DNA from: Spirochaetota bacterium
GTDB taxonomy: Bacteria > Spirochaetota > UBA4802 > UBA5368
Assembly: GCA_018263175.1 (NCBI GenBank)
Contig: JADFDB010000001.1
Location: 64,260-104,595 of the forward strand
DNA: 40,336 bases
Direction: 5' to 3'
Translations under genes and position numbers: made by a program
Part shown: positions 32,143 to 35,072 of the stretch, piece by piece
How the letters are laid out: each line of letters starts with the position of its first letter
Numbering within the stretch: position 1 is the first letter of the stretch
The notes under the pieces: model-generated
What the model was told of the DNA's origin: nothing
What the model saw: the letters and a program-made list of their open reading frames with translations, nothing else
Database searches by the model: none

Positions 32143-34212
32143 ATGGAAGATAATACATCCCGGGTGCAGTATATACGCAAAAGGGATGGGCGCATTCTTC
32201 CCTTCGACGCCGGAAAGGTTACCGATGCCATATTCAAGGCGGCGAGAGCGGTCGGCGGGAGCAATAGGGAGACGGCGCAGTCGGTATGCGATTCCGTGGT
32301 CGGTATTCTGAATATACTGCACTACAAGGAAGGCAGAACCCCCACAGTCGAGAACGTTCAGGACCTCGTTGAGAAGATGCTCATCGAACGGGGCCACGCA
32401 CGCGTCGCGAAGGCGTACATACTCTACCGCGAGCAGCACCGTAAGATCCGCGATGGCAAGGACCTCCTCAACGAGGGCATACAGCTCGTCGAACAGTATC
32501 TCGACCGCTCGGACTGGCGGGTCAACGAGAACAGCAACATGAGCTATTCGCTGCAGGGGCTCAACAACCATATCGCGTCGGCGATCACCGCCAAGTACTG
32601 GCTGGAGCGTCTGTACCCGCCGGAGATACGCGAGGCGCACGTTTCATGCGATTTTCATCTTCACGACCTCGGCCTCCTGTCCGCGTACTGTGTGGGTTGG
32701 GACCTCAGAGATCTCCTGCTCAGGGGATTCGGAGGCGTTCCGGGCAAGGTCGAAAGCCGTCCGGCGAAGCACTTTCGCAGCGCGCTCGGACAGGTGGTGA
32801 ATTTTTTTTACACGCTGCAGGGGGAATCGGCCGGAGCGCAGGCCTTCGCGAACTTTGATACCTATCTGGCGCCCTTCATCTTCTACGACCGGCTCACGCA
32901 GGCCGAGGTGAAGCAGTGTTTGCAGGAGTTCGTGTTCAATATGAATATACCGACGCGGGTCGGTTTCCAGACGCCTTTCACCAATGTAACGCTTGACCTC
33001 AAGGTGCCCTCGACGATCGGCGAGGAGTATATCGTGATAGGCGGGGAGATCCGCGACAGAAAATATGCCGAGTTTCAGGAAGAGATGAACATCTTCAACG
33101 TGGCATTCGCCGAGTGCCTCCTGGAGGGCGACGCACGAAATCGCATCTTCACCTTTCCGATCCCGACCTACAACATTACCGCCGACTTCGACTGGGAGAA
33201 CCCGGCGCACAACCGGCTCTGGGAGATGACCGCGAAATACGGTATTCCCTATTTCGCCAATTTCGTGAATTCCGACATGGACCCCGAGGATGCGCGCTCC
33301 ATGTGCTGCCGTTTGCGCCTCGACAACAGGGAGCTTCGAAGCCGCGGCGGAGGGCTCTTCGGGGCGAACCCCCTCACGGGAAGCATCGGGGTCGTGACCA
33401 TCAACATGCCCAGGCTCGGGTATCTTGCGAAGGATGAGGCGGAGTTTTTCGAGCGGCTCGCGCATCTCATGGATCTGGCGAAGGACTCGCTCGAGATAAA
33501 GCGGAAGGTGCTCGAGAACTTCACCCTGAGCAATCTGTATCCCTACACAAGGGTATATCTCTCGGACATCTACGAGCGAAACGGCCGTTACTGGTTGAAC
33601 CATTTTTCCACGATCGGGCTGGTCGGGATGAATGAGACCTGCGTCAATCTGCTCGGCGGCGATATCGCCTCGGCCGAAGGGAAGGAATTCACCATACGCG
33701 TGCTCGACTTCATGAGGGAGCGCATACGGGGGTACCAGGAGGCGACCGGAAACCTCTACAACCTGGAGGCGACTCCCGCCGAGGGCGTAAGCTACCGGTT
33801 CGCGAAGCATGACAGGGCCGCCTATCCCGAGATAAAATCGGCCGGGACGAACGAACCCTATTACACCAACTCGGTGCATCTACCCGTGGGACACACGGAC
33901 GACATCTTCGATGCACTGGACCACCAAGACGAGCTGCAGACCCGCTTTACCGGCGGAACGGTTGTACACGGATTCATCGGCGAGAAGATCGACGATCCGC
34001 AGATGGTCAAGCACCTCGTGCGCCGCATCGCCGAGAATTACGCGCTTCCTTATTTTACCATCACCCCGACGTTCAGCATCTGTCCGGTGCACGGTTATAT
34101 CGCCGGTGCCCACAGGTTCTGTCCCTACGAGCACACGGAGGAGGAACTGGAGAAATTCGGCGTTGAGATTACGGCCAGGGATGCCGATTATAATAAAAAG
34201 ATAGCGATGTAA
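32143..34212 (+). CDS. nrdD: Anaerobic ribonucleoside-triphosphate reductase, large chain lacking the glycyl-radical domain
   Basis: 689 residues. NrdD reduces ribonucleoside triphosphates to deoxy forms without oxygen, using formate and a glycyl radical. An N-terminal ATP-cone (YIRKRDGRILPFDAGKV) is followed by the barrel with NMSYSLQGLNNHIASAI, FAEC, MCCRLRLDNREL, RGGGLFGANPLTGSIGVVT, VGMNETCVNLLGG and YFTITPTFSICP. Intact NrdD ends with a Cys4 zinc knuckle and then EVYSRVVGY with the radical Gly. Here the chain ends after CPVHGYIAGAHRFCPYEH and a ~25-residue tail, with no RVVGY. The missing domain is encoded in the next gene. GGAG lies about eight bases before the ATG. The activase gene follows. 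Confidence 0.93.
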   Translation: MEDNTSRVQYIRKRDGRILPFDAGKVTDAIFKAARAVGGSNRETAQSVCDSVVGILNILHYKEGRTPTVENVQDLVEKMLIERGHARVAKAYILYREQHRKIRDGKDLLNEGIQLVEQYLDRSDWRVNENSNMSYSLQGLNNHIASAITAKYWLERLYPPEIREAHVSCDFHLHDLGLLSAYCVGWDLRDLLLRGFGGVPGKVESRPAKHFRSALGQVVNFFYTLQGESAGAQAFANFDTYLAPFIFYDRLTQAEVKQCLQEFVFNMNIPTRVGFQTPFTNVTLDLKVPSTIGEEYIVIGGEIRDRKYAEFQEEMNIFNVAFAECLLEGDARNRIFTFPIPTYNITADFDWENPAHNRLWEMTAKYGIPYFANFVNSDMDPEDARSMCCRLRLDNRELRSRGGGLFGANPLTGSIGVVTINMPRLGYLAKDEAEFFERLAHLMDLAKDSLEIKRKVLENFTLSNLYPYTRVYLSDIYERNGRYWLNHFSTIGLVGMNETCVNLLGGDIASAEGKEFTIRVLDFMRERIRGYQEATGNLYNLEATPAEGVSYRFAKHDRAAYPEIKSAGTNEPYYTNSVHLPVGHTDDIFDALDHQDELQTRFTGGTVVHGFIGEKIDDPQMVKHLVRRIAENYALPYFTITPTFSICPVHGYIAGAHRFCPYEHTEEELEKFGVEITARDADYNKKIAM

Positions 34213-34228
34213 CAGGAGACATGGAAAT

Positions 34229-34426
34229 ATGAAGAAGGACAGGCAAGTCCCCGTTGAGGTTTATTCCAGAGTCGTTGGCTATTTCAGGCCGGTGAACCAG
34301 TGGAATAAGGGCAAGCGGGAGGAATTCAACGACAGGCGGGAGTACTCATTCAAGGACGTCAAAGAAGCGTGCATATATGAATATAAAGGGAATACACAAG
34401 ACCTCGCTGATCGACTTCCCCGGTAG
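34229..34426 (+). CDS. Stand-alone glycyl-radical domain of the anaerobic ribonucleotide reductase
   Basis: 65 residues, in a different frame from nrdD. It contains EVYSRVVGYFRPVNQWNKGK and then REEFNDRREYSF, the exact glycyl-radical C-terminus of NrdD, with the radical Gly in RVVGY. AGGAG (34214-34218) is ten bases before ATG 34229, sixteen bases after the nrdD stop. A stop at 34202 closes the frame upstream. It runs 50 bases into nrdG. I infer it supplies the radical subunit in trans to the larger chain. A few extra residues (SFKDVKEACIYEYKGN...) follow the usual end, in the overlap. Confidence 0.85.
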   Translation: MKKDRQVPVEVYSRVVGYFRPVNQWNKGKREEFNDRREYSFKDVKEACIYEYKGNTQDLADRLPR

Positions 34427-35072
34427 GATCAGCTCGGTTTTCTTTACCGGGGGATGCAATCTCCGGTGCGGTTACTGCCATAATCCCGAGCTCGCCTGCA
34501 ACAGCGGCTGCCTGCGGTCGTATTCGAACGACGAAGCGCTCGGATTTATTAAAAAGCGCCGGGGTATTATCGACGGCGTGACCATTTCGGGCGGCGAGCC
34601 CACCATCTCGGGAAACCTGGAATCGTTTATCGGAGCCGTCAAGGAGATGTCCGTGGCGGTGAAAATCGACACCAACGGCCTCAATCCCGCCGTGGTGGCG
34701 CGTCTTGCCGACAGGGGGCTCGTCGATTACGTCGCGATCGATATCAAGACATCGCCGAAGAAGTATGATTTCGTGGTGGGCCGGCACGTCGATTTTTCGC
34801 GCGTCGCCGAAACGGTCGGGATAATCAAAAACTCCGGGATCGAGTATGAGCTTCGGACCACCTGCATCCCAGGGTACGTGACGCTCGAGGACTTCGGAAG
34901 CATCGGGGCCGCACTCGGGCGCGTAAAACGCTATTTCCTGCAGCAGTTCGTGCCCGATGTCACGCTCGACGAGTCCTTCCACGATCTGCGGCCCTATGCC
35001 GTCGAGACGCTGCACGGCTTTCGCGCGTACGTGGCCACCTTCGCCGATCTGTGCGAGCTTCGCGGCGTCTGA
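34377..35072 (+). CDS. nrdG: Anaerobic ribonucleotide reductase-activating protein (radical SAM)
   Basis: 231 residues. NrdG uses a 4Fe-4S cluster and S-adenosylmethionine to make the glycyl radical. The N-terminus MNIKGIHKTSLIDFPGRISS and the cluster motif CNLRCGYCHNPELAC (CxxxCxxC) match the activase family, with GGEPTISG as the SAM-binding GGEP region. It is longer than short NrdG proteins (~155) and nearer the PflA-like activase form with a full partial barrel. Start ATG 34377 fits the family start; the ribosome site is weak. It overlaps the radical-domain gene by 50 bases, suggesting coupling. Confidence 0.92.
   Translation: MNIKGIHKTSLIDFPGRISSVFFTGGCNLRCGYCHNPELACNSGCLRSYSNDEALGFIKKRRGIIDGVTISGGEPTISGNLESFIGAVKEMSVAVKIDTNGLNPAVVARLADRGLVDYVAIDIKTSPKKYDFVVGRHVDFSRVAETVGIIKNSGIEYELRTTCIPGYVTLEDFGSIGAALGRVKRYFLQQFVPDVTLDESFHDLRPYAVETLHGFRAYVATFADLCELRGV

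Follow-up and report, generated by a model that had tools for sequence, protein, structure and literature searches.

How can a class III ribonucleotide reductase work when its glycyl-radical domain (GRD) is encoded by a gene of its own, and is such a split a real property of the enzyme or an accident of sequencing, decay or decoding? We addressed this question at the nrdD locus of a Spirochaetota bacterium within a window of 40,336 nt, the whole stretch of DNA that was analyzed and to which the coordinates below refer.

The nrdD Locus Encodes the Glycyl-Radical Domain Separately

The nrdD core (32143–34212, plus strand; stop codon TAA at 34210–34212) encodes 689 residues that comprise an ATP-cone (residues 10–100; Pfam, E = 7.9e-22) and the NRDD barrel, and it ends after the zinc motif; a Pfam search of this chain found no GRD, which sits in a separate ORF. 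The core matched positions 1–531 of the 562-position Pfam family NRDD (PF13597) with 592.1 bits (E = 1.6e-177; curated cut-off 26.2) and scored 1036.9 bits against NCBIfam NF006126 (PRK08270; cut-off 548). The stand-alone GRD gene (34229–34426, plus strand) encodes 65 residues in a frame that differs from that of the core, is preceded by an AGGAG ribosome-binding site at 34214–34218 (plus strand), 10 nt before its ATG, and matched positions 532–562 of PF13597 (38.7 bits, E = 6.6e-10; cut-off 26.2). Thus, with both matches above the cut-off, the core and the GRD jointly span the family from end to end. The initial annotation had described an nrdD frame that runs to 34212 without the terminal RVVGY segment, followed by a GRD frame with its own AGGAG site; these coordinates proved correct, and the two halves are complementary in PF13597.

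Both chains retained the residues expected to carry the radical. By alignment, the expected radical cysteine lies in the finger-loop motif MCCR (Cys388-Cys389, 33304–33309, plus strand), and this cysteine pair was invariant in 55 aligned rows. The motif was present in 62/62 split, 10/10 redoxin-branch and 41/45 fused core rows, and it has been linked to the use of formate or thioredoxin (PMC9669993). A further alignment placed the zinc motif CPVHGY...CPYEH (34081–34134, plus strand) on the core; the zinc role of this region is taken from the class III family (PMC9669993). The zinc motif is followed by the tail HTEEELEKFGVEI, which was common to many split cores in an alignment of which every second row was shown and was missing from two of them (L216 and L253) in the same alignment. 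In the small chain, the expected radical glycine by homology to NrdD C-termini is Gly17 of the RVVGY segment (codon at 34277–34279, plus strand), which was invariant in 13 alignment rows. The next gene (34377–35072, plus strand) encodes an nrdG2-type radical-SAM activase (TIGR02495, 190.1 bits; cut-off 131.15), and its ORF starts with the ATG at 34377 inside the GRD ORF, the two overlapping by 50 nt (34377–34426) but read in different frames, so that nrdG may shape the tail of the GRD protein.

The source genome is a 2.65-Mb draft in 241 contigs that is 73% complete, in which an NRDD search detected one GRD, no intact NrdD and no further NRDD match. A match to a class II-type ribonucleotide reductase was also present (PF02867, G000:C208:3504-4916); therefore, the split enzyme may be dispensable. 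In addition, this genome encodes two glycyl-radical enzymes of the pyruvate formate-lyase (PFL) type, each with its own C-terminal domain.

The Split Is Conserved in the Phylum and the Small Gene Is under Purifying Selection

We searched 98 genomes of the phylum, including the source genome, and obtained an NRDD match in 70, of which 65, the source genome counted, were read at the core locus; those left out were G018, in which no core was detected, G022 and G039, whose cores lay at contig ends or were fragmented, and G091 and G092, whose matches were weaker and differed in length. Most of the genomes compared were draft metagenome assemblies, and the closest named relatives were draft Spirochaetes genomes. 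A separate GRD ORF was located 3–369 nt downstream of the core stop in 53 of the 65 genomes. In particular, this linked split was found in 4/4 genomes of the genus (source included), 3/3 of the family, 33/34 of the order and 13/24 of the rest of the phylum; the one exception in the order, G038, has a locus cut by a contig end. Four genomes (G054, G063, G066, and G074) carried a GRD unlinked to the core, with one or two GRDs elsewhere, and the distance between them was about 527 kb and 95 kb in the single-contig genomes G063 and G074, respectively. Single-frame fusions were observed in 7/65 genomes, with a short joint in G050, G052, G064, and G068 and a long joint in G062, G073, and G083. The search of related genomes that the initial annotation had proposed thus recovered the same split, and among these loci we encountered no close relative with one intact frame in its place. 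Its proposal that the GRD works in trans is likewise well supported, as judged from the separate GRDs that accompany the cores of the genus, family and order and from the four unlinked genomes.

Two side observations were made among these loci. One genome of the same order, G011, has a second, longer, intact nrdD beside its split enzyme, encoding a 969-residue NrdD with the GRD in the same frame (L070, G011:C89). At two loci (L091:8057-9197 and L093:6917-8034), the unlinked GRD gene adjoins a radical-SAM gene, and the nrdD of these genomes has no GRD in its vicinity; the radical-SAM gene, for which Pfam was run on L091 only, is possibly a second activase.

Selection on the source GRD gene was estimated from the 49 codons outside the nrdG overlap by comparison with three genomes of the same genus. 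Against two of them, 17 synonymous and 5 non-synonymous differences were counted (dS about 1.0, dN about 0.044), and against the third, 21.5 and 13.5, respectively (dS 2.1, dN 0.13). The GRD gene is under purifying selection. The draft state of the source genome, 73% complete and in 241 contigs, would be compatible with a single gene that has been disrupted, whether by an error in sequencing or assembly or by a mutation of recent date; however, a separate GRD in 53/65 genomes with varied spacing and in two named isolates (see below), together with the selection on the small ORF, makes this explanation scarcely credible.

The spacing of the genes also bears on whether programmed frameshifting or stop read-through could yield one long NrdD. 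Some relatives do have the core and the GRD in frame across a single stop (L178), which speaks for such a product. However, across the 53 linked loci the gaps of 3–369 nt fall in all three frames and, under a permissive rule, a ribosome-site-like stretch precedes the GRD in 48/53. The occurrence of all three frames and of the unlinked copies in four genomes argues against a shared programmed frameshift, and we regard a long decoded product as highly improbable. Sequencing error, pseudogene formation and programmed frameshifting were accordingly rejected by this comparison with relatives.

Split Enzymes Occur beyond the Phylum

Named bacterial and archaeal genomes were scanned with the GRD alignment, and the best 80 loci, a set that leans to stand-alone copies, comprised 35 with a separate core and GRD, 36 fused, 2 fused with a separate GRD as well, and 7 with a GRD and no core in the stretch. 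According to record titles, the split cases among these best 80 belonged to Thermodesulfobacteria, Desulfuromonadales, WOR-3, TA06, Omnitrophota, Goldiibacteriota, FCPU426, and Sumerlaeota drafts. In two Thermodesulfobacteriota isolates, Thermodesulfatator autotrophicus S606 and Thermodesulfobacterium hveragerdense DSM 12571, the genome showed no NRDD match besides the split pair. A match to nrdG lay in the same stretch at 28 of the 35 split loci and was missing from the stretch, some stretches being short, at 7, including those of both isolates.

To place the fused, split and redoxin-branch states on the core phylogeny, we used two trees, both built by a quick method. The tree of 117 distinct cores required 8 changes of state, compared with 43.9 when the labels were shuffled. 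A second tree of 96 rows, from which the fused cores L168, L211, L240, and L252 were removed and in which the spirochaete split rows were thinned, required 9 changes, compared with 38.6, and its strongly supported branches force at most three per state. With moderate support, the long-joint fused cores nested among the split ones, a placement suggestive of re-fusion.

One Lineage Joins the Radical Domain to a Redoxin-like Domain

In eight linked loci of another spirochaete branch (L009–L013, L020, L021, and L027), the separate GRD forms the N-terminal part of a 157–181-residue protein, in which a C..C pair lies early in the second half. Pfam, run on three of the fusions (L009, L011, and L231), matched thioredoxin or glutaredoxin families above the cut-offs; L231 comes from a named Spirochaetaceae draft, and its core is not in the stretch. 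The redoxin branch formed one clade with a support of 100 in the 96-core tree. Two further loci, L054 and L063 (genomes G063 and G074), were assigned to this branch by label, and the GRD proteins of these genomes share the N-terminal part, with the redoxin part absent and the genes unlinked to the core. A single-sequence structure prediction of the L231 fusion had a mean pLDDT of 50.1 and was set aside. Fusion of the GRD to a redoxin-like domain is consistent with a small chain that binds the core transiently.

Structure Prediction and Proposed Mechanism

We modeled a relative of the same family with AlphaFold2 by reading through its one stop, so that the two parts formed a single joined chain; the aligned sequences included fused homologues. 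The model reached a mean pLDDT of 81.8 and a pTM of 0.79, with the joint below 50; successive blocks over residues 721–760, within which the GRD lies, had pLDDT values of 59, 77, 85, and 67, the block of the radical glycine averaging 59. It superposed on solved NrdDs with the C-terminal part included, so that its GRD fell on theirs, residues 118–752 on 85–735 of 8p2s (Z 33.4, rmsd 2.7, 559 aligned). The model thus agrees weakly with docking of the GRD at the usual place in NrdD, since one joined chain was folded and the confidence was low at the glycine block and the joint.

Because the split core lacks a GRD of its own, the small chain would be obligate in split genomes, and we consider an obligate radical subunit acting in trans to be its most likely role. 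In conjunction with the locus and its conservation, we proposed, with good though not full confidence, a two-gene class III ribonucleotide reductase in which a separately made radical chain docks, takes the radical and passes it to the core. The nrdD-grd-nrdG cluster would be translated into a core chain (ATP-cone, barrel, MCCR finger loop and zinc motif) and a separate 65-residue radical chain; the small chain would dock at the site that the C-terminal end occupies in an intact NrdD, NrdG would install the radical on Gly17, and the radical would then move from Gly17 to the finger-loop cysteine. A small chain cut by oxygen might be swapped for a fresh one and the 689-residue core kept. In glycyl-radical enzymes, NrdD among them, oxygen cuts the peptide backbone at the glycine (PMC12288474).

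Extra Copies of the Radical Domain in Genomes and Viruses

Extra GRDs beside the linked one were found in at least 10 genomes of the phylum (G009, G011, G013, G014, G026, G028, G036, G040, G042, and G058). Several extra or unlinked copies had phage-type neighbors, namely an endolysin (L078), a replication protein (L074), a DNA transposition protein (L080), a major head protein (L092) and a single-strand binding protein (L090); the neighboring proteins at L076 and L081 gave no match in the same phage-gene search. Other extra copies occupied chromosomal sites (L073 and L079; L082, L083, L085, and L087) in recurrent places, next to leuS and thiamine genes or to a transporter or birA-like gene, these neighbors being named by eye except ThiC.

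Among the 2.9 million contigs of IMG/VR, 333 stretches encoded a GRD relative. The best 80 of the 333, those closest to the source GRD alignment and hence leaning to stand-alone copies, comprised 75 stand-alone GRDs whose stretch lacks a core, 1 with a separate core and 4 fused. We searched 45 records of these best 80 at full length, and 45/45 had only the GRD end of NRDD and no NrdD core, although the records may be fragments; NrdG2 was above the cut-off in 0/45, with weak radical-SAM matches in four. The radical glycine was kept in the best 80 loci, one of the two search patterns having already contained it. In one record (L148), the GRD gene lies between the portal and major head genes. A terminase profile matched 28/45 records but also 11/14 cellular control genomes and is therefore a weak viral sign; the hallmark genes beside chosen copies are a better one. 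The GRD copy L261, from a Desulfuromonadales draft whose reductase is split, encodes the same protein as an IMG/VR copy (L114). Selection is evident between closely related copies: L124 and L126 differed by a dS of 0.57 with a dN of 0, and GRD pairs with a dS of 0.1–1.5 had a median dN/dS of 0.20 (254 non-independent pairs). Separately, in two of the 75 stand-alone IMG/VR copies, L132 (near 6043) and L133 (near 5552), the GRD is broken by one in-frame stop, TAA in L132, where relatives have Gln; either the gene has been inactivated or the stop is recoded.

Stand-alone GRDs are rare in GenBank phages. Among 50,697 phage records, the source GRD matched three at E up to 0.01, two of the matches being the terminal part of a complete reductase, and the sole stand-alone GRD of the three was a 144-residue protein of ANMV-1 virus; with the L118 copy as the query, two of the same records were matched. 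Among plasmids, 29 records matched, all below 60% identity, and most of the matches listed were annotated as reductase.

These copies weigh on two further explanations. The small protein might have another job, for example inhibiting NrdG or NrdD or acting as a decoy for either, with the core inactive. Nothing speaks directly for such a role, and phage copies could hijack or block instead of help; however, the core retains its invariant residues and MCCR, the GRD retains the radical glycine segment, and the two isolates have the split pair as their only NRDD match, so we regard this role as very unlikely. The split might instead be real and the two chains bound in a permanent complex, the small chain never being exchanged and serving no repair. 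The genes are usually together and often with nrdG, and the split class II reductase NrdJab is a precedent for a split without a repair role. Set against this are the extra GRDs in at least 10 split genomes of the phylum and in others, and the viral contigs with a GRD alone; a permanent complex is possible, and we would take it seriously, but on balance we doubt it.

The initial annotation had further suggested that the small chain might be replaceable after oxygen damage. Exchange of the damaged chain is a reasonable inference from the analogy with PFL and GrcA (PMC8683613) and from the extra copies, whose presence both in genomes and in phages strengthens it.

Zinc-Ribbon Copies Accompany Intact Enzymes

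Three genomes, those of L213, L235, and L258, had an extra free GRD alongside an intact NrdD; the source genome, 73% complete, did not show this arrangement. Two CxxC pairs precede the GRD in these 3/3 extra copies, compared with 0/21 where the genome or lineage has a split core (Fisher p 0.0005; the rows are related, only three are fused-side, and L260 of the 22 split-side loci was missed by the motif). Three of the loci in this test (L090, L091, and L093, from G054 and G066) may hold the working subunit and no extra copy. The presence of the zinc ribbon on extra GRDs thus appears to follow the type of the host enzyme. In the Smithellaceae draft with an intact nrdD (L258:3583-4616), the zinc-ribbon GRD begins less than 100 nt after a rubrerythrin gene, and the rubrerythrin family is linked to oxygen defense.

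Relation to Known Systems and Implications

The intact class III reductases (NrdD with NrdG, as in T4, T. maritima, and P. copri) share with the split enzyme the same family across both chains, the ATP-cone and the adjoining nrdG, and those of the double-cysteine branch share the MCCR finger loop; in contrast, the GRD is a separate gene here and the zinc motif stays on the core, reading C..H...C...H in the split lineage versus C..H...C..C in most of the intact relatives among the alignment rows shown. The PFL spare parts GrcA/YfiD and T4 Y06I are likewise small free GRDs for radical supply in trans, with a phage-borne example (PMC8683613). The likeness to GrcA/YfiD drawn in the initial annotation holds in function but not in family: the source GRD belongs to PF13597 and not to the PFL-type family PF01228, to which Pfam gave no match at E up to 1 (only PF13597 was reported), and it serves another partner enzyme. 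Nor does the comparison with a rescue copy carry over, the GRD being an obligate subunit in split genomes. NrdJa/NrdJb also spread a reductase catalytic chain over two genes (PMC9669993), but that enzyme is class II. Some phages have nrdD in pieces as well, and splits of phage nrdD and nrdA are mostly ascribed to introns, inteins or homing endonucleases within one gene, with the process at phage phiAS4 left open by the same paper (PMC3653736); here, by contrast, the split is conserved at a domain boundary, and viral contigs carry the GRD alone. The split enzyme thus joins two known kinds, split ribonucleotide reductases and glycyl-radical spare parts.

Our searches of open-access papers yielded no description of a separate NrdD glycyl-radical gene, although subscription papers may hold one. 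According to Andorfer et al. (2021), only two spare parts, both for PFL, have been validated, and parts for other enzymes of the class may exist (PMC8683613). By analogy, the stand-alone GRDs are candidate spare parts for class III ribonucleotide reductase, a role validated so far for PFL alone. Genes of 40–75 residues such as these may be overlooked or misnamed in annotation: Pfam NRDD finds them, NCBIfam matches fall far under the cut-offs, PHROGs gives weak matches only, and the ANMV-1 virus copy is filed as the reductase itself.

Taken together, these results incline us somewhat toward a wider proposal, in which class III ribonucleotide reductase has exchangeable radical parts: many anaerobes would have a detachable subunit, others an intact enzyme with a zinc-ribbon GRD as a spare for repair after oxygen damage, and a set of phages the GRD alone, with which they would re-arm the oxygen-damaged or under-activated reductase of the host for phage DNA synthesis. 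The split enzyme provides concrete spare-part candidates for ribonucleotide reductase in both cells and phages. Because its core and its radical chain can be produced apart and then combined, it also opens the installation of the radical, its damage by oxygen and the repair of that damage to direct test.
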